Source: Chlorobiota bacterium (lineage in GTDB: Bacteria > Bacteroidota > Bacteroidia > JAADEI01). From it: a stretch of DNA of 49,446 bases. The stretch lies in contig JAADEI010000009.1 of the NCBI GenBank assembly GCA_013153515.1, positions 1-49,446 on the forward strand, written 5' to 3'. A program made the position numbers and the translations under genes. Positions 310 to 38,872 of the stretch are shown piece by piece. Position 1 is the first letter of the stretch; the number at the start of each line of letters is the position of its first letter. Below the pieces are notes generated by a model. That model worked only from the letters and a program-made list of their open reading frames with translations. It was not told the DNA's origin and did not search any database.

Positions 310-2001
310 CTATTCCACTTTCCACAGTGCGGATAATCCGAGGAGGTTGACGAGATGTTGTGCAATGAAGCGTATTGATTTCTTTTCGTGATAGATAGCA
401 TGCTGAGTGTTAAATCCATAGAAGACGACCGGGACCCGCTGGTCATAGGCGTAAGGAGTTCCGTGAGTTGTTCCTGTTTCTGCATAGCCTTCATACCAAC
501 CGGGTTTCAATAAGAACCATATATCGCCGCATCTTTCGGGGTCAAAGGACCTGATGAGGTAAGGAGGAGCCTGACGGAGAAGTATTTCTTTTCGGGTCCA
601 TGCGTTTAGGACCTGTGGTTTATTAACCAACCATTGGCGGGCTGCTTCCAAGGCTATATCATAGAAATCGCCTAACTTCTGGCGGTCTAAATATACCCAT
701 TGGTTCATTATTGCCAAAACATTTTTAGGATACTTCTTTCGTCTTTTCCTTTTAGAACGGGAGGGTTTTGACTCAACTTCCTGAAGTAATACAGGCATAG
801 GCTTTATTATCTCTTCCAGTATTTTTTTGTGTATAAAAGCGTTTAATTCTTCTTGCCATATTTTGAATGAGTCTTGCGTGAGTAGTCCGGCGTCTATGGA
901 AAGGCTATCTCTTGCAAATTTCCAATTTTCCGCTACGCCGTGGTCGGAAGTTATGATAAGCAAATAGTTTTCAGGACCTATGGACTCATCAAGGAAATCA
1001 ATAAAGTTTCCGATGAGGCTGTCCAGTCGGACATACACGTCCAAGAGTTCAAGGGACCGTGGACCAAAGTAGTGTCCCACTATGTCTGTTGAAGAAAGAC
1101 TTATAGCAAGAAGGTCGGTGATAGAATCTTTACCGAGTTTCATTTGTTTAACTGCCTGTTTGGCGAAATCAAGGGTTATAGCATTTCCCCAAGGTGTTGA
1201 ACCAATTGTGCCGGGTATTGACGATATGGCATCCATTATGTCATAAGGGAACTCAGGCACTTCTTTAAAGGGAGACCTTTCATAAGGGCTGGGGTCGTAT
1301 TTATCACGCAGATGGTGGAGTTTAGGATGGAGACGCCATTTTTCAGGGACGAAGTATGCGGCGTGTGCCTTTTGATTGTAGTCTTTTACCCATTGGGGGA
1401 GGTCTGGTGCGTAATAGGAACTGGTTGTCCACTGTCCTTGAATGAAGTCGTACCAGAATGCGAAGTCTGCTTTTTTACCGCCGGATAGTATAGCACTTCT
1501 GTCTTTTAGGGAGATGGCGACCACTTTGGACTGTGGATTTCGCAATTTAAGCAGGTCGCCCACTGTTGGAACCCTTAGATTAGCAGGGCTATAGCCCTTG
1601 TCATCTGGTTCGCCCCACACTTTTTTATGGATGGAATCATCCACTGCATAGACCTTTGTTTTTCTGATGGGGTCAAACCATTTGTTTGCAACTATTCCAT
1701 GTATTGCAGGAGAGGTTCCGGTGAAGATTGTGGCGTGACCTACTGCTGTGAAGGTTGGCACATGGTCGTGATATACGTTATCATAAACCATTCCTTTCTC
1801 AAGCAGTTTCTTGAATCCGTGTTGCCACAGGTGTTGCCATCGCCATAAATAATCGGCTCTCATCTGGTCAATGACCATCACTACAACCAGTCGTGGCTTG
1901 TCGTGCGAAACAGAATTAACTTTTTCCACGTAATTTTTGTTATGATTACAGGAAACAAGATAAACCAGAGCCGTGACCAGTAAAACAAAACCCAATCTCA
2001 T
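310..2001 (-). CDS. PafA-like alkaline phosphatase / type I phosphodiesterase lipoprotein
   Basis: Alkaline phosphatase superfamily hydrolase, expected to act on phosphate esters outside the inner membrane. With the start at 2001 it has 563 residues and opens with a hydrophobic segment and lipobox (LVSC, Cys18), so it is a predicted lipoprotein. Asp45 in VIDQMRADYL, Thr85 in PTFTAVGHAT (the nucleophile by analogy with Bacteroidota PafA), STDIVGHYFG, TSDHG and a final THGTPYAYDQ supply the expected catalytic and two-zinc ligands. The length fits PafA (about 550). The frame is open further upstream to 2130, but that would bury the signal peptide and overlap the opposite gene by 158 bp, so 2001 is preferred. 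An exact TATCTTTG box lies 5 nt before this ATG. The start overlaps the divergent rel gene by 29 bp. Family call firm; exact substrate not known. Confidence 0.87.
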   Translation of the reverse strand: MRLGFVLLVTALVYLVSCNHNKNYVEKVNSVSHDKPRLVVVMVIDQMRADYLWRWQHLWQHGFKKLLEKGMVYDNVYHDHVPTFTAVGHATIFTGTSPAIHGIVANKWFDPIRKTKVYAVDDSIHKKVWGEPDDKGYSPANLRVPTVGDLLKLRNPQSKVVAISLKDRSAILSGGKKADFAFWYDFIQGQWTTSSYYAPDLPQWVKDYNQKAHAAYFVPEKWRLHPKLHHLRDKYDPSPYERSPFKEVPEFPYDIMDAISSIPGTIGSTPWGNAITLDFAKQAVKQMKLGKDSITDLLAISLSSTDIVGHYFGPRSLELLDVYVRLDSLIGNFIDFLDESIGPENYLLIITSDHGVAENWKFARDSLSIDAGLLTQDSFKIWQEELNAFIHKKILEEIIKPMPVLLQEVESKPSRSKRKRRKKYPKNVLAIMNQWVYLDRQKLGDFYDIALEAARQWLVNKPQVLNAWTRKEILLRQAPPYLIRSFDPERCGDIWFLLKPGWYEGYAETGTTHGTPYAYDQRVPVVFYGFNTQHAIYHEKKSIRFIAQHLVNLLGLSALWKVE

Positions 2002-4231
2002 AGGTACAAAGATAACACTAAAAGAGGCAGAGGAGCATCTGAGTGAGGAGGAGCGTCGTGAAGTCCGCAAGCGATACAGGGCATTGCTTAAAGCAATAAA
2101 GAAATCGGGTAATAATACGGACATACGCACTGTTGGGAAGGCTTTGCGGGTGGCTATGAAAGCCCACAGGCATCAACGCCGTAAAAGTGGAGAGCCATAC
2201 ATATACCATCCCTTGCAGGTGGCAACCATAGTCGCTGAAATAGGGCTTACGGACACAACATCTATTGTTGCTGCTCTCCTGCACGATGTGGTTGAAGACA
2301 CTGACCTGACCCTTGAAGACATATCTCAAATGTTCGGCACAACAGTTGCCGAGTTGGTGGATGGGCTGACAAAAGTTAGTAAGTTATCGCACAGTGCAGT
2401 AATTATGCCACATTTGGAAACGTATCGTAAAATTTTGCTTGCATTAGCCAAAGATGTCCGAGTGGTTATTATTAAAATAGCCGACCGTTTGGACAATATG
2501 CGGTCTCTGGATGCATTGCCCGAACATAAAAGGGTCAGGATTGCTATGGAAACAAGATATTTATATGCTCCATTAGCCCATCGGCTGGGACTCTATTCCA
2601 TAAAAACAGAACTTGAAGACTTGGCACTGAAACACTTAAATCCCAAACAGTATTACGAAATAGAAAAATGGGTTAAGAAAAACAAAGAGAAATGGGAGAA
2701 AATTCTAAATCGGTTCGTCAGACAGTTAAGGATTTATCTACGCAAGGCTGGATATAACAATTTTACTATTGAAAAACGCATAAAGGCGATTTCTTCCATA
2801 TATGACAAACTGGTTCGTAAAAAGGACGAAGGAATAACACTAAACGAGATTTATGATGTGCTGGCGGTAAGAATAGTTTTAGATGTCCCGCCTGAAACGG
2901 AAGATGTTGCCTGTTACGATGTTCTGAGAGTGGTTCATAAACATTTTCCTCATATCCCAGACAGGGTGCGAGATTGGATTTCCCATCCCAAAGCAAATGG
3001 TTATCAATCGTTGCATACCACGGTTATTGGTCCTGAAGGAAAACACATTGAGGTTCAGATTAGGTCTGTCCGGATGCACGAAGTTGCAGAAAAAGGCATT
3101 GCCGCCCATTGGAAATATAAGCAAGGTGTTTTGAGTGACAAGGTATTAGAAGAGTGGTTTGCACGTGTCAGGGAAATCCTTGCCCATCCGGAAAAGGACC
3201 CGCACCTGTTCCTTGAGGATATGAAACTTAACCTGTTTGACAATGAGATTCACGTGTTCACTCCCAAGGGGGAAATAATAACCCTGCCGAAAGGTGCCAC
3301 GGTGCTGGACTTCGCTTTCCATATACACACACAATTGGGCTATCATTGCATTGGGGCTAAAGTGAACAACAAGGTCGTTGAACCCACTCATGTTTTAAAC
3401 GATGGGGACCAAGTGGAGGTGTTGACTGCCCAGAGCCAGACGCCACAACCTGAATGGCTAACAGTGGTCAAGACCGCCATAGCCAGAAGGGCTCTGAGGA
3501 GATATTTCAGACGGGCAAAGAAAGAACTGATAAATAAAGGGAAAGAGAAGGTAAAGAAATTTTTCGCTGAGAACAATATAAAATTTGTGCCTTCAAATCT
3601 GAAAACTCTTGTTAAATATTTGGGATTTAAAGACGTGAAGGAGTTATACTATGCTGTGGGGCGAGGGGATCTGTCGCTCAAGATGCGAGATGGCTGGAAA
3701 GTGGAAGATGGAAAGTTGATTATAGAAAAACCGTTGACGCTTGAAGAACAACTCAGGATTCAGTTGCACAGTAGCACAATCCAGGAATTTGAAGGAAAAT
3801 CATTTCAAAAATGTTGTACGCCCTTGCCGGGGGATAATATAGTCATTTTTCAACGTGAAGATGGTGCCTTAGAAATCCATCATTCCAGTTGCGAAAAGGC
3901 TGCTGAGTTGCTTGCCCACTATGGAGCACAGATAATCAAGACCAAATGGGAGCCCGATGGAAAAATATCATTTATGATAAGGATTAGGGTTAAAGGCACG
4001 GACAGAAAAGGAGTTGTTTATGACCTGTCCCGAATCATATCAAAAGAATTGGATATGAACATGCAGGGAATTTCCATTGAAAGCGACAGAGGTCAATTCT
4101 CTGGATACATAGACGTTTTTGTATCAAATAGGGAGCAATTAGACAATTTAATCAAACGATTAGAAAAAGTTCCATATCTGCATTCTGTGGAAGTGGCTGA
4201 GGGGCAACTTCTTTGGGCATCAGAGAATTAA
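1973..4231 (+). CDS. rel: bifunctional (p)ppGpp synthetase/hydrolase (RelA/SpoT family, Rel)
   Basis: Makes and degrades the stringent-response alarmone (p)ppGpp. The 752 residues carry an HD hydrolase domain with intact HDVVEDTD (His104-Asp105), a synthetase domain with KRIKAISSIYDKL, NGYQSLHTTV and the catalytic EVQIR, a TGS domain (IHVFTPKGE...), and a C-terminal ACT domain. Both HD and synthetase motifs look complete, so both activities are plausible. The start is a GTG at 1973, overlapping the start of the divergent phosphatase gene by 29 bp. A near-match box AATTTTTG at 1932-1939 could drive it. No in-frame ATG exists before Met62, so a later non-ATG start (for example the CTG before SEEERREV) cannot be excluded. 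Cytoplasmic. Function firm; start uncertain. Confidence 0.93.
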   Translation: MTSKTKPNLIGTKITLKEAEEHLSEEERREVRKRYRALLKAIKKSGNNTDIRTVGKALRVAMKAHRHQRRKSGEPYIYHPLQVATIVAEIGLTDTTSIVAALLHDVVEDTDLTLEDISQMFGTTVAELVDGLTKVSKLSHSAVIMPHLETYRKILLALAKDVRVVIIKIADRLDNMRSLDALPEHKRVRIAMETRYLYAPLAHRLGLYSIKTELEDLALKHLNPKQYYEIEKWVKKNKEKWEKILNRFVRQLRIYLRKAGYNNFTIEKRIKAISSIYDKLVRKKDEGITLNEIYDVLAVRIVLDVPPETEDVACYDVLRVVHKHFPHIPDRVRDWISHPKANGYQSLHTTVIGPEGKHIEVQIRSVRMHEVAEKGIAAHWKYKQGVLSDKVLEEWFARVREILAHPEKDPHLFLEDMKLNLFDNEIHVFTPKGEIITLPKGATVLDFAFHIHTQLGYHCIGAKVNNKVVEPTHVLNDGDQVEVLTAQSQTPQPEWLTVVKTAIARRALRRYFRRAKKELINKGKEKVKKFFAENNIKFVPSNLKTLVKYLGFKDVKELYYAVGRGDLSLKMRDGWKVEDGKLIIEKPLTLEEQLRIQLHSSTIQEFEGKSFQKCCTPLPGDNIVIFQREDGALEIHHSSCEKAAELLAHYGAQIIKTKWEPDGKISFMIRIRVKGTDRKGVVYDLSRIISKELDMNMQGISIESDRGQFSGYIDVFVSNREQLDNLIKRLEKVPYLHSVEVAEGQLLWASEN
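2007..2014 (-). promoter_or_regulatory. -7 promoter box of the PafA-like gene, leaderless arrangement
   Basis: On the minus strand this reads TATCTTTG, an exact match to the Bacteroidota -7 consensus TAnnTTTG. Only five bases (TACCT) separate it from the ATG at 2001, so transcription should start at or next to the start codon. No clear -33 TTTG is visible at the usual distance. The box lies inside the opening codons of the divergent rel gene. Confidence 0.55.
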
Positions 4232-4270: not shown

Positions 4271-4278
4271 TAATTTTG
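4271..4278 (+). promoter_or_regulatory. -7 promoter box of the fur-family gene, leaderless arrangement
   Basis: TAATTTTG, an exact TAnnTTTG match, followed by only CAGA before the GTG at 4283. The spacing places the expected transcription start at or beside the GTG, which supports both that unusual start codon and a leaderless mRNA. No good -33 TTTG is seen at the standard distance. Confidence 0.6.
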
Positions 4279-4282
4279 CAGA

Positions 4283-4753
4283 GTGAAACCGAAATTTGAT
4301 TTTGAGGAGGTTAAACAGGTAGTGGAAGATTGTTTGAGAAGGAAGGGTCTTCGTAAAACATCCGAGAGATTTCACATCTTAAAGCACATTTACGAAAGAG
4401 GCGGACACTTTGACGCAGACACTCTCTACGTTGAACTGAGGAACAAAGGGATTAATGTTAGCCGAGCAACCGTATATAATACTCTTGATTTGTTTACTAA
4501 ATGTGGCATTTTAACTTCCCTCTTTTTTACGCCCCATCACATTGTTTACGATTTCAGTTATAAAGCTAAGCAACATGAACATCTCTATTGCGAAGTGTGT
4601 GGGAAAATAGAAGAATTCTGTGATCCAAGGCTTAGTATCATAGAAGAAGACGTTCAGAAACTCACGGGATTTAAGATAATTAAGAGAAATGTCGTTTTTA
4701 GAGGAATCTGTTCGGAATGCCAGAAAAAGATGCAAGAGAAATCAGAGAAGTGA
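4283..4753 (+). CDS. Fur/PerR-family metal-responsive transcriptional regulator
   Basis: A 156-residue ferric-uptake-regulator family repressor: an N-terminal winged helix (about 1-90, with the recognition region SRATVYNTLDLF) and a C-terminal metal-binding dimerisation domain containing HEHLYCEVCGKIEEF and CSEC. The HxH plus CxxC pairs are the usual structural and sensing metal sites. Sequence alone does not separate Fur, PerR, Zur or Nur. The only reasonable start is GTG at 4283, right behind a TAATTTTG promoter box. It follows rel by about 50 bp and has its own promoter. Regulated genes cannot be named; the downstream asparaginase has a separate promoter box. Confidence 0.93.
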   Translation: MKPKFDFEEVKQVVEDCLRRKGLRKTSERFHILKHIYERGGHFDADTLYVELRNKGINVSRATVYNTLDLFTKCGILTSLFFTPHHIVYDFSYKAKQHEHLYCEVCGKIEEFCDPRLSIIEEDVQKLTGFKIIKRNVVFRGICSECQKKMQEKSEK

Positions 4754-4857: not shown

Positions 4858-4865
4858 TATGTTTG
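4858..4865 (+). promoter_or_regulatory. -7 promoter box of the asparaginase gene, leaderless arrangement
   Basis: TATGTTTG matches TAnnTTTG exactly and is followed by CAAT and then the ATG at 4870, a 4-nt gap. A TTTG lies at 4841-4844, closer than the usual -33 spacing. The arrangement predicts a transcript beginning at the start codon. Confidence 0.6.
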
Positions 4866-4869
4866 CAAT

Positions 4870-5793
4870 ATGAGTTGGAAGATTGTTATTCATGGAGGGG
4901 CGGGAAATATAACGCCCGAGCGGATTGGGGACAGGGAAGAGGCTTATAGGCAAGCGTTGACGGAATGTGTTATGGCTGGTGCCGAAGTTCTCAAACAAGG
5001 GGGCAGTGCTATTGATGCTGTCGTGGTGTCTGTAAAAGCCCTTGAGGACAACCCTTTATTTAATGCTGGAAAAGGCTCCGTTCCCAATGAAAAAGGCATT
5101 GTTGAGATGGATGCCGCTGTAATGGACGGCAAAACGTTGAATGCGGGAGCTGTAACGATGGTAAAACATATTAAAAATCCTATTCTTCTGGCTCTGAAAG
5201 TTATGCAAGAAAGTGAACACGTACTATTGGGTGGGGAGGGTGCTGAAGAATTCGCTCTGGAACAGGGCTTTGAATTGGTTGAGAACAGATATTTTATCAC
5301 CGAAGAAAGATGGAAGCAATATGTAAAAAAATTCCTATCCGAACACAAAAAAGTTGTAGAGATTAATTCCCTTGGGACAGTTGGCTCTGTTGCAGTTGAT
5401 AAAGATGGAAATGTTGCAGCAGCCACAAGCACAGGAGGGCTTTTGTTTAAGCACATGGGACGGATTGGCGACACGCCACTGATAGGGGCAGGCACTTATG
5501 CCGACAACGAAGGGGCTGCTGTTTCTACAACCGGCTTGGGAGAATTCTTTATTCGCACCACCACCGCTTTTCAAATCAATATACTAACCAAATTTGGAAC
5601 GCCAATCGCTGAAGCAGTCAGGAAAGTGCTGCAACAAGTTAAGACACTTGGTGGCACAGGGGGTGTCATTGCTATCAATAAAAACGGCGAACATGTGATT
5701 GACTGCGTGAGCCCGGGGATTTTTTCTGCTGTGGCGAAAGAAGTAGGCAACTATATTGAATCTAAAACCTTCTTATATAAACACGATTTATAA
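4870..5793 (+). CDS. Thr-type isoaspartyl peptidase / L-asparaginase (Ntn hydrolase, family T2)
   Basis: A 307-residue plant-type asparaginase: it cleaves isoaspartyl peptides and/or L-asparagine after autoproteolysis into alpha and beta subunits. Visible marks are the N-terminal IHGGAG, the FNAGKGS glycine loop, the GTVGSVAVD segment whose Thr would become the beta-subunit N-terminal nucleophile, TSTGG, and GDTPLIGAGTYAD near the substrate site. There is no clear signal peptide, so it is probably cytoplasmic, whereas some Bacteroidota homologues are exported. The start is fixed by a TATGTTTG box four bases upstream. It is transcribed alone; about 180 bp separate it from trxB. Substrate preference cannot be read from the sequence. 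Confidence 0.92.
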   Translation: MSWKIVIHGGAGNITPERIGDREEAYRQALTECVMAGAEVLKQGGSAIDAVVVSVKALEDNPLFNAGKGSVPNEKGIVEMDAAVMDGKTLNAGAVTMVKHIKNPILLALKVMQESEHVLLGGEGAEEFALEQGFELVENRYFITEERWKQYVKKFLSEHKKVVEINSLGTVGSVAVDKDGNVAAATSTGGLLFKHMGRIGDTPLIGAGTYADNEGAAVSTTGLGEFFIRTTTAFQINILTKFGTPIAEAVRKVLQQVKTLGGTGGVIAINKNGEHVIDCVSPGIFSAVAKEVGNYIESKTFLYKHDL

Positions 5794-12326: not shown

Positions 12327-13748
12327 TCAACCATTAAGGTTCACATCTAATAGCCACATAGCAACGGTGAAATAGATAGCCACTCCCGTTACGTCAACCA
12401 ATGTAGCCAAGAATGGGCTAGATGCTAATGCCGGGTCCTTGCCCAAAGCATGAATAATCAATGGAATAAGTGAACCCATTAGAGTAGCAAACACTATCTG
12501 CACAGATAGAGATATTCCTACAACCCACGCAATCTTAATCAGTTCAAAGCCCGGGCCCAATTGTGAAGGGTCAACAACCAGAAACACTTCAACCATACCG
12601 AGCAAGCCAAGGGTGAGCCCGAGGATTATTCCCACCCTTGCTTCATTCCACACAATTCGGAGCCAATCCGAGACGGATACCTGTCCCAAAGCCAGTGCCC
12701 TTATGATTTGAGCTGCTGCCTGAGAGCCTGAGTTCCCACCCATACCAGTAACGAGGGGCAGGAAGAAGGCAAGTACCGCCACTTTGGAAATTAGTCCCTC
12801 AAAGAATTGTATCACAGTAGCTGTTCCCATAGCCATCAGTGCGAGGATAACAAGCCACACAACACGCCTCCTATAATGATCCCAGATGGAAAGTTCTTTA
12901 TATTCAAAAGTTTCCTCAGGAACAATACCCATCATCTTTTCTAAATCTTCTGTTTGTTCCTCACGCAACACATCCATTGCTTCATCGTAGGTAACTATCC
13001 CGACCAGTTGCCCTAAATCATTCACCACCGGGATGGCTATCAATTCATATTTCTCAATTTTATTAACCACATCTTCCCGGTCCTCATTAACGTGAGCATA
13101 CACGAAGTCTTTCAACATTAGGTCATCAATCTTCTGGTCCGGTTCCGCAAGCACTAACTTCCTAAGAGTTAATACCCCCTTTAACTTTTGGTCATCATCA
13201 ACAACATAAGTATAGTAAATCATTTTTCGTGGGGCATCCCTACGCACCTTCTCAAGAGCTTCTTTGGCTGTCATGCCTTCATATAGAGTGGCGAAGTCAG
13301 TGCTCATTATCCCGCCTGCCGTATCTTCTGGATAAGCACTGAGTTTAATAACCTCTTCGCGAACTGGCTTAGGCAGATAAGGTAATAAGAGGGATTGCTC
13401 TTCCGGGGAGAGGTCCTTAAAGAAGTCCACTCGTTCCGCCGAATCGGCTAACTCAAAGATCTCAGCAAATTTTCTTGGTCCCAGATGTGTAAGTAGCTTT
13501 TTCTGAAACTCTCTGTCTAACTCATTAAAAATGAGAGCTTGTTGCTCAAGGGAAAATTTTTCAAAGAAATCAAAGAAAAGATGTTCGGGAAGGTTCTGTA
13601 AAATCTCTGCTACTTCAACAGGAGGCTTTTGTTGAAGAACACTACCCCACTTGCTCCAATCTGGGTCAGCCTTGATTTCCTCAATGAGCCGTTCCAACTC
13701 CTCCTCCCTTTCCCCCTCTTCCATCAACGTTACCTTTGCCTCCTGCAC
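12327..13748 (-). CDS. mgtE: magnesium transporter MgtE
   Basis: MgtE-family Mg2+ channel/transporter of the inner membrane, 473 residues. It has the helical N-domain (about 20-145, ending in SAYPEDTAGGIMS), two CBS domains (about 150-270) that sense cytosolic Mg2+, and a C-terminal membrane domain with about five helices and the pore region LVTGMGGNSGSQAAAQIIRA. All three parts are intact. The start is GTG at 13748, supported by a TAAGTTTG box 5 nt upstream; a later ATG lies eight codons in. With such a short or absent leader there is no room for an Mg2+ riboswitch, so regulation is likely through the protein itself. Confidence 0.96.
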   Translation of the reverse strand: MQEAKVTLMEEGEREEELERLIEEIKADPDWSKWGSVLQQKPPVEVAEILQNLPEHLFFDFFEKFSLEQQALIFNELDREFQKKLLTHLGPRKFAEIFELADSAERVDFFKDLSPEEQSLLLPYLPKPVREEVIKLSAYPEDTAGGIMSTDFATLYEGMTAKEALEKVRRDAPRKMIYYTYVVDDDQKLKGVLTLRKLVLAEPDQKIDDLMLKDFVYAHVNEDREDVVNKIEKYELIAIPVVNDLGQLVGIVTYDEAMDVLREEQTEDLEKMMGIVPEETFEYKELSIWDHYRRRVVWLVILALMAMGTATVIQFFEGLISKVAVLAFFLPLVTGMGGNSGSQAAAQIIRALALGQVSVSDWLRIVWNEARVGIILGLTLGLLGMVEVFLVVDPSQLGPGFELIKIAWVVGISLSVQIVFATLMGSLIPLIIHALGKDPALASSPFLATLVDVTGVAIYFTVAMWLLDVNLNG

Positions 13749-13753
13749 AACTA

Positions 13754-13761
13754 CAAACTTA
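13754..13761 (-). promoter_or_regulatory. -7 promoter box of mgtE, leaderless arrangement
   Basis: On the minus strand TAAGTTTG, an exact TAnnTTTG match, followed by TAGTT and then the GTG start at 13748. A TTG sits about 22 bases farther upstream and could be a weak -33 element. It supports the GTG start and a leaderless transcript. Confidence 0.55.
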
Positions 13762-13855: not shown

Positions 13856-14047
13856 ATGTGTAACGTAGGAGGCATAGACAGATGGTTGAGGATAATTCTC
13901 GGATTGATCTTAATTGGTGTTGGATACTATTTAGAAAAGAATTGGATCGTAATTGGGATTGGAGTCATTTTACTGCTTACTGGAATTATCAAATTTTGCT
14001 TGATTTACAAGATTTTAGGGATATCTACTTGCCCAAATAAGAGCTAA
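13856..14047 (+). CDS. small DUF2892 (YgaP-like transmembrane) protein
   Basis: Only 63 residues: MCNVGGIDRWLRIILG, then two hydrophobic helices (about 10-26 and 30-46) and a short Cys-containing tail ending TCPNKS. This is the layout of the DUF2892 inner-membrane family related to the membrane part of YgaP, here without the rhodanese domain. The function is unknown; relatives are often near sulfur or thiol metabolism genes, which is not the case here. It stands alone between mgtE and the M43 peptidase gene. Confidence 0.8.
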   Translation: MCNVGGIDRWLRIILGLILIGVGYYLEKNWIVIGIGVILLLTGIIKFCLIYKILGISTCPNKS

Positions 14048-14112: not shown

Positions 14113-16023
14113 ATGAGGTCTTTTTTCTTTCTTGTGGGGGGAATCGTTCTATATTCAACTGTTCTGTTTGCTCAACAAGATGGTAATAGAGGGTGCGGAA
14201 CAATCCTACCACCTCCTTTCATTGATTTCCTCAAAGAAAAACCCTATAAACACCTAAGAAACTTTGATTTAACAACAACATATTGGGTTCCAACAACCGT
14301 ACACATAATCTGTAAAGATGATTCCTCTGGCTGCTATCCATTAATTCCTTTCTTTCAGAATATGTGTGAAGCTCAAGCTTCTTTTCAACCTGCAAATATC
14401 CAATTCTTCTTCCCCAATTTTTTTCAAGATATTAAATATCACTATTCTACTGATGCATGGTCCAACAATAACAATGCCTTAGGGACCCTAATTGATAATG
14501 CTATGGTTCCAGAAAGGATGGACATGTTTATAATGGGTAATGGAGATGCTTGCGGCGTTACGGTTTGCGGTTGTGTTAACTGTTGTGTCTTTGATGCCAT
14601 AACCTTGAATCCTGCGTGTGTGGGACCCAATAACACCACTATTCAGCATGAGGTGGGACACTGGCTTGGGCTCCCCCATCCTTTTGATGAAGGGTTCTCT
14701 GGATGTAGAGAGTGTGTTGACCGTTCCAATTGTGAGGTTTGTGGTGATATGTTTTGCGATACAGAAGCCGACTATTTGAACTACCGATGGCAATGCCCTT
14801 ACACAGGCAACATGACTGAACCCACCAATTGCCCTGCCCCAATAGAAACGATAAACCCGGACCCCACTCTCTACATGTCCTATGCCTCAGACCACTGCAC
14901 AAACAGATTCACCGGAGAACAGATTCTCCACATGAGAGCACTCATCCAAACCGGACTTAACTCCTCTCAATATGGGAATTGGTATAGCAGAACATGGATT
15001 CAAAACTATTCACCCTCTATCTCAGACACTATCATTTGGAATGATACAGTTCTTTACAGTGGCAATACACGCCACATTGCTACTTCAGGACATATGTTAG
15101 TTTGGCGAAAAGTAAAAAATGCTTCTCATTACTTGGTAGAGGCAATCGGTTCAAGCTTTATCAGGGATTGGATCGTGGCTGATACTATCACTTTCATTCC
15201 TCAGCTGCCCGCCAATGACATAGTTACCATTTATGTCAAACCACTTAACTCCGCATATTTCTGCAGTCCTGCAAAACAATTTCAGGTAAGAACATCATTT
15301 ATGGGAATAAGGTTTTCAATAGACACACCCCGATGCAGTGGGAAAGCCACGATCAATTTCACTGTACTGAATGATACCTCTAAGGGTCAATTGATGATTT
15401 CCAATATTGCTACGCAAAACTTTAGCATTTTAAAACCTATAGAGGTTGATTCGGAAGGTTTCCATAAATTCTGGATTTTCAATGTTTATGCAGACAGCGT
15501 GTTCGCATGGGTTTACGTACCACACATCAGCACCAAAGTGGAAATAACCAATATCCAAGACCAGAACGACTCCCTAAAAGCAAACATTGCTCTTTTGCCG
15601 GCAGATTCTAATGAACAAATAACCTACACATGGATACTGCCTTCCGGCAAAGAAATATCCAGTTCAGATGCATTAGCAATACCAAAAACTGAATCAGGAA
15701 CATACACACTAATTGTAACAACATCAGAAGGATGCTCAGACACCCTACAAAGCTTTTACCAACTGCCTGCAAACTCAAGTCCACCCAGAGCATGGGTTAA
15801 ACAATCGGAGGATGGTCAATTGGAGCTCATTATAAAAGGTTCAGAATCCTTCTCTTTTGAAGCAAAAATCTTCTCTAACGACGGAAAACTGGTATATCAA
15901 TTTTCAGGGACATACCCCGAAAACAACACAATGGCTTTACCCCACTTAGCACCGGGAGTATATACCTTAAGCTTCACGTCCACAAACAAGCCTGAATTTA
16001 GAAGTAAATTTATAGTAAAGTAA
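14113..16023 (+). CDS. secreted pappalysin-type (M43) zinc metallopeptidase with T9SS-like C-terminal domain
   Basis: A secreted zinc protease of 636 residues. A signal peptide (first 20 or so residues, ending LFAQQ) is followed by a metzincin catalytic domain with HEVGHWLGLPH and the Met-turn YMSYASD, and many Cys residues that suggest disulfides. A middle region of beta-sandwich-like segments comes next, and the last 80 residues have the look of a type IX secretion sorting domain (HLAPGVYTLSF...KFIVK). It should cross the outer membrane by T9SS and be anchored or released outside the cell. The T9SS machinery is not in the window. It has its own promoter with a leader and is followed by another secreted protein gene. 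Confidence 0.9.
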   Translation: MRSFFFLVGGIVLYSTVLFAQQDGNRGCGTILPPPFIDFLKEKPYKHLRNFDLTTTYWVPTTVHIICKDDSSGCYPLIPFFQNMCEAQASFQPANIQFFFPNFFQDIKYHYSTDAWSNNNNALGTLIDNAMVPERMDMFIMGNGDACGVTVCGCVNCCVFDAITLNPACVGPNNTTIQHEVGHWLGLPHPFDEGFSGCRECVDRSNCEVCGDMFCDTEADYLNYRWQCPYTGNMTEPTNCPAPIETINPDPTLYMSYASDHCTNRFTGEQILHMRALIQTGLNSSQYGNWYSRTWIQNYSPSISDTIIWNDTVLYSGNTRHIATSGHMLVWRKVKNASHYLVEAIGSSFIRDWIVADTITFIPQLPANDIVTIYVKPLNSAYFCSPAKQFQVRTSFMGIRFSIDTPRCSGKATINFTVLNDTSKGQLMISNIATQNFSILKPIEVDSEGFHKFWIFNVYADSVFAWVYVPHISTKVEITNIQDQNDSLKANIALLPADSNEQITYTWILPSGKEISSSDALAIPKTESGTYTLIVTTSEGCSDTLQSFYQLPANSSPPRAWVKQSEDGQLELIIKGSESFSFEAKIFSNDGKLVYQFSGTYPENNTMALPHLAPGVYTLSFTSTNKPEFRSKFIVK

Positions 16024-32278: not shown

Positions 32279-34638
32279 CCCTTTCTTTTATGCATGTGTG
32301 TATAGTAGCGATGATATATGTAGTAACCCTTCTTCCCATAGTAGTATGACCCATAACCATATCGTTTGGAACTGGCAACAACGCCGTTTGCCACCAATGC
32401 AACGAAGGGGATGCCCAGTTCCTCTTTTAGCCATTCGGCGGTTTTTATGGATTGATAATGGCTGTAGGAGATCCTGACTGTAAAGAGGACGCCGTCGCTC
32501 AATTGAATTAGAGGCATGGCATCAACAACCGTTCCCACAGGGGCAGTATCAATAATTACAATATCATACTGTGAAGTAAGGTTTCTCATTACCTCTTCTG
32601 TGTTCGGCGAACCCAACAATTCGGCAGTGTATAGGATTGGGCGTCCTGTGGGGATGAAATCAAAATTTGCTTGGGAGTCGCCTATAGTGAACTGTTGGGG
32701 TCTTATCACCTGCTCAAGCGTTGCACTTCCTTCCAACAACTCAATAAATCCGGGTTTGATGTCCTCACTGAATGTTCTGCTTAGGTCTGCTTTACGCAAG
32801 TCGGCATCTATCAACAACACCTTCTTCCTGCCTATGCTGGAGGCGAGAGCCAGATGACTGGCTATGAATGTCTTCCCTTCTTTGGGAACATTGGAAGTTA
32901 TGCATAGGGCAACGTTTCTGGACTTGCCTATGAGCATTGTTGCAGTGAGATGGACAGAACGGAAACTTTCCAATAGTTCAGGAGGGATTTTTTCCGGGTT
33001 GAAGCCTTGATATGACTTAACATAAGGGATTGTTCCTATAATAGGCAATTTGGTTTGTTTGGTTATTTCGTCTAATGTGGTTATAGTGCTTTGAGATAGA
33101 TAAGAAAGAACAATTATCAGAGTGGCAAGGAGAAACCAAGTTCCACCAGCCAAAATATATGTTCTCATTTTGTTTGGAGATATAGGAGATTGAGGGATAA
33201 CGGGGGATTTAATAACTACGAAAGGAGACACATATCCCGCCAGTTTCATCTCAAGTTCAAAAATTGTTTGAGTGAGGAAAGAATAGAGTTTTTCCTTAGT
33301 GTTAAGTTCCCTTTCTAAGCGATAGAGTTCGGCTACTGGCGAGGCGGTCATCGTTCTTCCCTTGGCAACTGAATTTATTTTATTTTCCAATTCTTTTATT
33401 CGTTCCGATAGCATCTCTTTCATCAAATTAATTGATTCTTGGAGTTCGGAGACCAGTTCTGCCAATTGTTGTTTTTTGAGTATGTAGTCTGGATGAGATG
33501 GGCTATACATTGTTTTTAGTCTGAGCAGTTCTGTTTTCAGAGAGACAAGCCTGTCAAAATCCCTTTGCATAGAGGTCATGGCATCGGGCAGGAACGGAAT
33601 CAAGGATGTTGAAATAACTGAATCTTCTTGAAGTTGCTTTTCCATTTCGCCAATTATCCTAAGTTGGAATTTCAGGTTCCATAGTTCCTCTGTCCACTCT
33701 TGAAGTTCTTTCAGGTCGTCTTGGGACAGTCCAGTGGATGTTTGAGTTAGGAGCGACTTAGCCTGCAATTCCGCTATTCTTCGCTGGAGTTGAACAATGT
33801 CTTTGTATAGCCTATTGAGTTGGGAACGGGCGAAAGAGAGTGTTTTCTGAGTCTCTTCCATCTGCTTATCTCTATCAAAATCTTTGAGTGCTTCAACCGT
33901 TGCCTGAACAAATTGATGTGCTTTGGTTCTATTGTTTGTTGTTGCAGAGATTGAGAACAATCCATTTGCGGGGTCAATGAGCGAACTCTGAACTGTTGAA
34001 AGGAAATTGGCTATCGCCGATTGTCGGGAGTTAATAGTTATCACATAGTCATATTCAAGGTCTGAATCGCTAAACGTGGTTCCTTTTTTTAGCACAATGG
34101 TATGTCCATCAATTGAAAAGGGAGTTTCCCATCTCACCACCCTAACTGGACTTCTCATATCAGGGTCAAGATAAATAACAATGCTATCCTGTGAAACGTC
34201 CAGATACAACGTTACAGATTTGCTTTGCGTTGGCTTGGATAGGATTTCCACTTTAATAACACGTTGGGGGGGGAACACCTCAGTGTTTAGGAAGACGCCT
34301 TTCCGCCACAGGGAGTATTCCCAAGGGAAATACTTGAGGAAGTATTCGCCCAACTGTTCTGAATGGATAATAAAGGAAAGTCTTTGAACATCTCTTTTCA
34401 CCTGACGGGGCACGAATTCTTGTTCTGAGAGGATGGAGGGTTCCTTCGGTTCATAGAGAAGCCATGCTTCGGAGAGGAACAGTGGGGGCGTATATCGGAG
34501 ATAGAGGTAAGCGAGGGCAAAGAGGACTAAGCCAGTGAGGGCAACAAGGGGCAATGCTTTGAAAAGTGCTTTTTTAAGCCTTTCCCAACTGAAGAAGGAA
34601 GCCGACATTATGAGTGTCTCAAACATCTCAACCGCCAA
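32275..34638 (-). CDS. Wzc-like polysaccharide co-polymerase / bacterial tyrosine autokinase
   Basis: A 787-residue inner-membrane protein. It has a first helix at about 25-48, a Wzz-like periplasmic domain with long coiled-coil helices (about 230-440), a second helix (about 485-510), then a cytoplasmic BY-kinase domain with Walker A VPKEGKTFIA, Walker A' VLLIDADLRK and Walker B VIIDTAPVG. The C-terminus is a tyrosine cluster, ten Tyr in about 20 residues, the autophosphorylation site. Such kinases control chain length and export of capsule or exopolysaccharide. The start overlaps the end of the Wza-like gene by 11 bp; ATG 34638, 34626 or 34608 are all possible. Confidence 0.94.
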   Translation of the reverse strand: MAVEMFETLIMSASFFSWERLKKALFKALPLVALTGLVLFALAYLYLRYTPPLFLSEAWLLYEPKEPSILSEQEFVPRQVKRDVQRLSFIIHSEQLGEYFLKYFPWEYSLWRKGVFLNTEVFPPQRVIKVEILSKPTQSKSVTLYLDVSQDSIVIYLDPDMRSPVRVVRWETPFSIDGHTIVLKKGTTFSDSDLEYDYVITINSRQSAIANFLSTVQSSLIDPANGLFSISATTNNRTKAHQFVQATVEALKDFDRDKQMEETQKTLSFARSQLNRLYKDIVQLQRRIAELQAKSLLTQTSTGLSQDDLKELQEWTEELWNLKFQLRIIGEMEKQLQEDSVISTSLIPFLPDAMTSMQRDFDRLVSLKTELLRLKTMYSPSHPDYILKKQQLAELVSELQESINLMKEMLSERIKELENKINSVAKGRTMTASPVAELYRLERELNTKEKLYSFLTQTIFELEMKLAGYVSPFVVIKSPVIPQSPISPNKMRTYILAGGTWFLLATLIIVLSYLSQSTITTLDEITKQTKLPIIGTIPYVKSYQGFNPEKIPPELLESFRSVHLTATMLIGKSRNVALCITSNVPKEGKTFIASHLALASSIGRKKVLLIDADLRKADLSRTFSEDIKPGFIELLEGSATLEQVIRPQQFTIGDSQANFDFIPTGRPILYTAELLGSPNTEEVMRNLTSQYDIVIIDTAPVGTVVDAMPLIQLSDGVLFTVRISYSHYQSIKTAEWLKEELGIPFVALVANGVVASSKRYGYGSYYYGKKGYYIYHRYYTHMHKRKG

Positions 34639-35392
34639 GGTTTTGTTGCAAAAGAAGGATAGTTAATATAAGGGACGTGAATGAGGAGACAAGGGTTAAA
34701 AGGGGCGTTATTTCCCTGAGGACTGCTGGGGCGACCCGTCGGGTTGGTTCCACATATACTATATCGTTTGCTTGGAGGACAACCTGAGCGTTGGGCAGTT
34801 GGCTCACATCTCTCAGATTCACCTGTTTAACCATTGGCTTTCCACCTACCATCCTGATTATCTTGATTTTATACGCCTTATGCATTTGTGGAATCCCGCC
34901 TGCTTTGGCGAGGGCTTCAAAGAGCGTCATGTTATTACGGGGCATTTCAACCGCCTGTGCCTTGTCTTGATAGAAGACGTAAACAAACCTGTTTGTTACT
35001 TCAAGATAGACGTATGGGTCTTTATATAATTGTGAATAGAGTTCAGTGAGCAGTTTGCGAGCCTGAGCGACAGTGTATCCCGCCAAGCGAACAGAGTCAA
35101 TTATAGGCAGATAGACATATCCATTTGGCATTATTTCATACGAGAGGAGTCGTGTTGTTTGCATATTGGTCGCCACATCAACGAGTTGCTGACCTTTCCT
35201 GGGCTGAACGAGGATTTTCAATTTGTCGCCACTGGACAGGACATATTCCTGAGGCACGAGGCTATCCACAAGGAAGGGGTCAACATTTTCAATAAACATC
35301 ACTTCTGGATAAAAAACCTTACATCCAGACATAACTAATGCTATCGCAAGTGTTTGCATCCTTTTTATTGCCCTGTTCTTTCCTGTCATCAC
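34628..35392 (-). CDS. Wza-like polysaccharide export lipoprotein
   Basis: Outer-membrane export channel component of 254 residues. A lipobox (VMSGC, Cys24) is followed by the polysaccharide export (PES) domain beginning at about 48 (YVLSSGDKLKILV...MPNGYVYLPIIDSVRLAG) and a SLBB-type domain (about 130-225, ...LQANDIVYVEP). There is a hydrophobic C-terminal helix (VSSFTSLILTILLL) as the probable membrane pass. It is the first gene of the operon with the BY-kinase and WecA-like transferase. The start is GTG at 35392, set by a TAATTTTG box four bases upstream. Confidence 0.93.
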   Translation of the reverse strand: MMTGKNRAIKRMQTLAIALVMSGCKVFYPEVMFIENVDPFLVDSLVPQEYVLSSGDKLKILVQPRKGQQLVDVATNMQTTRLLSYEIMPNGYVYLPIIDSVRLAGYTVAQARKLLTELYSQLYKDPYVYLEVTNRFVYVFYQDKAQAVEMPRNNMTLFEALAKAGGIPQMHKAYKIKIIRMVGGKPMVKQVNLRDVSQLPNAQVVLQANDIVYVEPTRRVAPAVLREITPLLTLVSSFTSLILTILLLQQNLGG

Positions 35393-35396
35393 AAAG

Positions 35397-35426
35397 CAAA
35401 ATTAAACTTTTTGTTATAAGGGCAAA
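35397..35426 (-). promoter_or_regulatory. promoter of the polysaccharide operon, leaderless arrangement
   Basis: On the minus strand TTTG (35426-35423), an 18-bp spacer, TAATTTTG (35404-35397), then CTTT and the GTG start at 35392. Both promoter elements match the Bacteroidota consensus, and the start codon sits where transcription should begin. The -33 element lies within the last codons of the upstream methyltransferase gene. Confidence 0.62.
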
Positions 35427-38854: not shown

Positions 38855-38872
38855 CGAATATACGTATATTAG
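38855..38872. promoter_or_regulatory. divergent promoter region with a 14-bp perfect palindrome
   Basis: AATATACGTATATT (38857-38870) is its own reverse complement. Read minus, it contributes TATATTCG (38862-38855, one mismatch to TAnnTTTG), 5 nt from the PPTase GTG. Read plus, it gives TATATTAG (38865-38872, one mismatch), 7 nt from the M28 gene's GTG at 38880. The two -7 boxes therefore overlap back to back. It may be a shared promoter, a dyad operator, or both. Confidence 0.4.

Follow-up and report, generated by a model that had tools for sequence, protein, structure and literature searches.

Promoter boxes abutting start codons predict leaderless mRNAs for a conserved minority of genes in an uncultured Bacteroidota lineage

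The stretch of DNA considered here (the window, 49,446 nucleotides) is one contig, C76, of an assembly of 2.2 Mb in 146 contigs that is 94.6% complete, and along it lie five genes whose start codons are closely preceded by an exact copy of the box TAnnTTTG (Table 1). The first-pass annotation had placed these boxes, each on its strand, 4–5 nt before the starts, and all five are present: the gap is 4 nt in fur (TAATTTTGcagaGTG), the asparaginase gene (TATGTTTGcaatATG) and the Wza-like gene (TAATTTTGctttGTG), and 5 nt in the gene of the PafA-like phosphatase (TATCTTTGtacctATG) and in mgtE (TAAGTTTGtagttGTG). The identities proposed for the genes agree with their Pfam families (FUR, Asparaginase_2, MgtE with CBS and MgtE_N, Poly_export and Phosphodiest); the nearest named record is Bacteroidetes bacterium MAG Dive100_bin10, with 80% identity in the asparaginase, and no RNA element was found in the window by Rfam. 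A sixth gene, for a PPTase, does carry the one-mismatch box that had been suggested for it (TATATTCG, 5 nt before a GTG); the Pfam support for this gene (ACPS) is marginal and its GTG start is unsure, because a longer in-frame ORF runs from an upstream ATG, and this weak and doubtful case is not counted among the box-abutting genes.

Table 1. Boxes and genes of the window, with the predicted state of the transcripts
Feature	Position	Strand	Remarks
fur promoter box TAATTTTG	4271..4278	+	box, CAGA spacer and GTG identical in G001 and G002
fur (PF01475), predicted leaderless, GTG start	4283..4753	+	Pfam E 5e-27
asparaginase promoter box TATGTTTG, 4 nt before ATG	4858..4865	+	conserved in G001 and G002
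isoaspartyl peptidase/asparaginase (PF01112), predicted leaderless, ATG start	4870..5793	+	Pfam E 8e-104
mgtE promoter box TAAGTTTG, 5 nt before GTG	13754..13761	-	conserved in G001 and G002
mgtE magnesium transporter (PF01769, CBS, PF03448), predicted leaderless or 1-nt leader, GTG start	12327..13748	-	Pfam
Wza-like operon box TAATTTTG, 4 nt before GTG, within 21-nt gap 3′ of the upstream gene	35397..35404	-	
Wza-like polysaccharide export lipoprotein (PF02563), predicted leaderless, GTG start	34628..35392	-	Pfam
PafA-like phosphatase box TATCTTTG, 5 nt before ATG, inside opposite-strand relA/spoT-type ORF	2007..2014	-	
type I phosphodiesterase / PafA-like phosphatase (PF01663), predicted leaderless or 1-nt leader, ATG start	310..2001	-	Pfam E 2.5e-44
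PPTase doubtful one-mismatch box TATATTCG, 5 nt before GTG	38855..38862	-	start codon uncertain, ORF open from 38939

In fur, the TAA of the box doubles as an in-frame stop, four codons ahead of the GTG, and the same relation is seen at the 4-nt sites whose box begins with TAA or TAG (4271–4285 and others), so that there the promoter also bounds the reading frame on its 5′ side. The start of the PafA-like gene and its box are overlapped, at 1973–2014, by the divergent relA/spoT-type ORF, which is open from a GTG at 1973. In the interval from mgtE to the gene at 14113 there is a short unlisted ORF on the forward strand (~13856–14047, MCNVGGIDRWLRIILGLILIGVGYYLE..., ~63 aa), which, by eye, we take to resemble the small membrane proteins of the DUF2892 type. 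Counted on both strands, the window has 34 copies of the box where dinucleotide shuffles give 46, if anything a depletion, and yet five of the 34 sit 4–5 nt before a gene start.

That TAnnTTTG is a promoter box, as had been supposed, is borne out in the genome of the window (G000), where it is the most enriched gapped 6-mer of 366 intergenic upstream regions (in 102 regions against 25 expected), which supports it as the main promoter box of this genome. Together with the base preferences and the upstream TTG given below, it matches the sigma-ABfr promoter of Flavobacterium and Bacteroides (PMC6847099, PMC9723704, PMC7366714) and, as in the TAHHTTTG of F. johnsoniae (PMC6847099), G is avoided at the first unspecified base, where leadered boxes have it in 3% of cases (9% at the second). 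The bases after the box are mostly C or T, A peaks at the sixth base past it, and a TTG, a candidate for the −33 element (TTTG/TTG) of such promoters, lies 17–22 nt upstream in 21 cases against 2.1 expected over the whole set, a signal not visible among the 15 leaderless-type sites alone. For comparison, two sister species of the same genus (G001 and G002), one genome of the same family (G003) and one of the same order (G004) were used. The more distant G004 (52% GC) retains the box, in 14 of 56 upstream regions against 1.5. In G003 (54% GC) there is no enrichment, with the box in 1 of 124 upstream regions against 3.8 by shuffle; no sigma-70-like signal was found upstream of its genes either, and words similar to AAATCC and GTTCnnnAA are enriched.

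The distances from box to start were surveyed in 40 contigs of G000 and 37 of G002, picked regardless of the box pattern and comprising 530 genes with upstream DNA. Excluded from the statistics were the first 20 stretches, drawn mostly from contigs that match the GTG pattern at 4 nt, and three contigs of G002 selected for the five genes. Genes were called with a simple codon model, the distance was taken from the end of the intergenic box to the first in-frame ATG or GTG, an automatic choice of start that is imperfect, and chance expectations came from dinucleotide shuffles (200 for the distance counts). The distances are bimodal, with a sharp peak at 4 nt and a broad leadered mode at 14–30 nt (73 boxes against 5.1 expected). 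At 4 nt there are 11 boxes against 0.47 expected, a number reached in none of the 200 shuffles, which never exceed 3, and at 5 nt there are 3 against 0.28 (also 0 of 200 shuffles), while 12 boxes lie at 6–9 nt and 4 at 10–13 nt. Thus, the sharp peak predicted at 4–5 nt does exist as an excess over shuffled sequence, although its mode is at 4 nt and the fifth position is only a small shoulder. Other motifs of equal composition show no peak at 4 nt, and in the same sample there is no significant excess at 0–3 nt (3 boxes, distributed as 1, 0, 1 and 1, against 1.45), an absence that is informative, because a start codon so close to the box would precede the start of transcription. In mapped Bacteroidota promoters transcription begins 4–5 nt past the box (PMC6847099), and the genes of the 4-nt peak would therefore be those whose start codon falls on +1. 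At 66–69% of the 4-nt sites a T directly precedes the start codon, against 40% with T at the corresponding position of leadered promoters, which fits an initiator with a pyrimidine at −1 and a purine at +1. A smaller excess of boxes is also seen 7–8 nt before ATG in the G000 sample, and predicts leaders of only ~2–4 nt.

At a quantitative level the class is a small one: some 14 of the 126 boxes that lie no more than 60 nt from a start in the unbiased set, about a tenth, lie at 4–5 nt. Over the whole genome, the exact pattern followed by ATG at 4 nt occurs 44 times against 19 for a reversed-pattern control, and among the 30 of these 44 matches with readable surroundings ~17 begin real-looking ORFs; for 5-nt sites the genome-wide counts lack gene context, which comes from the sampled stretches. 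The same pattern with GTG shows no excess over the control in the whole genome (16 against 21), since the majority of the matches do not begin a gene, 6 of the 16 looking like one against roughly 25 of the ATG matches. Among the other members of the class are a D-Ala-D-Ala ligase, an LptD-like protein, an NqrB/RnfD-type protein, a glycosyltransferase, an MgtC/DUF4010 protein and a Cas6-type protein. The earlier suggestion that these genes often begin with GTG does not extend beyond the window: GTG is used by three of its five genes and by about one in five members overall, all eight starts at 4–5 nt in the unbiased set of G000 are ATG, and the GTG share of the class (~6 of 31) is not significantly different from that of leadered genes (7 of 54; Fisher p 0.53). 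A leaderless class with a preference for GTG is rejected on this comparison, and the GTG theme is a local accident of the window.

The five boxes, their gaps and their start codons, the GTGs included, are unchanged in both sister species, and the persistence of the start codons is consistent with initiation at a 5′-terminal RTG. In fur, box and spacer are identical at 12 of 12 positions in G001 and G002, and the 48 nt upstream match, ungapped, at only 15–20; similarly, the asparaginase box is conserved despite scrambled upstream DNA, and in mgtE the box, the gap and the GTG are kept and the spacer and early codons vary. The conservation of the PafA-like box is confounded by the relA-type coding sequence on the other strand, and that of the Wza-like region in part, by its partial overlap with other coding sequence. 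The exact spacing is kept in six of six testable 4–5 nt sites against 14 of 21 leadered ones; a greater fixity of spacing in leaderless promoters is thus suggested, although the difference is not significant (p 0.13). The arrangement is conserved within one genus and is not clearly shown by G003 and G004. In other Bacteroidota the box of the asparaginase homologues lies at a leadered distance or is missing from the nearest 150 nt, and the predicted leaderless state of this gene is therefore probably not ancestral.

If we accept these data together, the boxes would be the −7 elements of ordinary promoters of the primary sigma factor (sigma-ABfr type) that abut the start codon. RNA polymerase would begin 4–5 nt past the box, on the first base (A or G) of the start codon or on the base before, the mRNA would be leaderless or carry a leader of 1 nt, and the ribosome would recognise the 5′-terminal AUG or GUG directly, and not the A-rich leader element of the other genes. 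The identity of the promoter, the excess at 4 nt and the conservation are established in this lineage; the exact start of transcription and the leaderless translation we infer from mapped relatives, and it is because the mapped Bacteroidota starts lie 4–5 nt past the box that leaders of 0–1 nt are the best prediction for the five genes. That ordinary promoters here abut the start codon and give transcripts with such leaders, initiated on a terminal AUG or GUG, is in our judgement highly probable.

Alternative explanations would accept the boxes and place the weight elsewhere. Read-through, or a second promoter upstream, might dominate, with the proximal box giving only a minor leaderless transcript: relA, fur and the asparaginase gene follow one another on one strand, and the Wza-like gene starts 21 nt past a methyltransferase-like gene. 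However, for pafA and mgtE the box is the sole close promoter candidate noted, the gene upstream of mgtE being divergent, and in fur and the asparaginase gene selection keeps box and spacer while the rest of the gap drifts, so that this explanation appears unlikely for the set, even though read-through could add leadered copies of fur, asparaginase and the Wza-like gene, each downstream of a gene on the same strand. Alternatively, the boxes could be true promoters of messengers with ordinary short leaders, translated from start codons further downstream, as the imperfect automatic choice of starts and the other in-frame starts of mgtE and PPTase would allow. Against this, the substitutions in fur are biased towards the third codon position from right after the GTG (identities of 27–28, 26–27 and 17–19 of 30 at positions 1, 2 and 3), and no Met follows until the C-terminal end; in the Wza-like gene, where box and GTG are conserved and the downstream codons have diverged, the GTG at 4 nt is the only start codon common to the three species; the asparaginase begins its MxWKIVIHGGAG at the box-proximal ATG; and downstream starts would not predict a peak at exactly 4 nt, all of which makes this possibility very unlikely. 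Finally, chance matches to a short, picked motif, compatible with a density of 4–5 nt sites ~5 times that of the genome (P of about 0.003 for five when 0.9 are expected), which reflects that the window was picked, can practically be discarded, and are refuted for the set, by the recurrence of the 4-nt peak in contigs picked regardless of pattern and by the conservation of five of five sites in two sister species, while single sites such as that of PPTase could be chance. The first-pass estimate of one box per 4 kb per strand was somewhat low for AT-rich DNA, but its view that sites so close to starts are hardly accidents stood.

Promoters that abut the start codon would also have consequences for translation. 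No enrichment of Shine-Dalgarno sequences was found before the gene starts of G000 and G002, where leadered genes are A-rich at −14 to −11 (50–60% A); the starts of G003 follow a comparable A-rich run from −16 to −12 and have C at −2 and −1. With the box at −12 to −5, the mRNA cannot carry this A-rich element, and since the leadered genes have the A-rich stretch and lack a Shine-Dalgarno, leaderless genes would have to use another way in. It could even be supposed that, in this genus, selection has kept a fixed and conserved gene set (including fur, mgtE, asparaginase and polysaccharide export) leaderless, as a class translated without recourse to the A-rich leader on which other mRNAs of Bacteroidota rely, and whose GUG-led members are tuned for low or stress-dependent output; we regard this further step as unlikely. 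The ribosomes of Bacteroidota rarely use Shine-Dalgarno pairing, and leaderless mRNAs are one alternative route of initiation. The class can be read from the sequence alone, in such a way that the abrupt edge of the distances at 4 nt places the predicted start of transcription, points to probable genuine starts, GTG in several cases, where gene finders could go wrong, and supplies a list of conserved genes for testing.

Among known systems the closest is that of Flavobacterium psychrophilum and F. johnsoniae, with the same sigma-A box TAnnTTTG, transcription starting at 4–5 nt, mostly leadered genes and no Shine-Dalgarno (PMC9723704, PMC6847099); in F. psychrophilum 5.5% are leaderless (PMC9723704) and in F. 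johnsoniae ~13% have leaders of 10 nt or less (PMC6847099). The Flavobacterium leaderless genes have been mapped, whereas in the uncultured lineage of G000 they are deduced from sequence and conservation. Bacteroides thetaiotaomicron shares with G000 the phylum, the type of box and the low share, with ~3.7% of its transcripts having leaders under 10 nt, although its short-leader genes are different, namely transposases, sensor kinases and transporters (PMC7366714). Actinobacteria and Deinococcus-Thermus show the same twin peaks, with a start at +1 far favoured over +2 to +5, a separate leadered class and both ATG and GTG (PMC4633059, PMC3160421), a geometry seen in the mycobacterial data (PMC4633059); in contrast, their −10 box is TANNNT, and more than 20% of their genes are leaderless, against about a tenth of the box-bearing genes in G000. 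This share of ~10% is similar to the 4–13% reported in Bacteroides and Flavobacterium. In summary, the box-abutting starts are real and conserved but ordinary: similar cases have been described before in the phylum, and they leave unchanged the accepted picture in which leaderless genes are a minority there.
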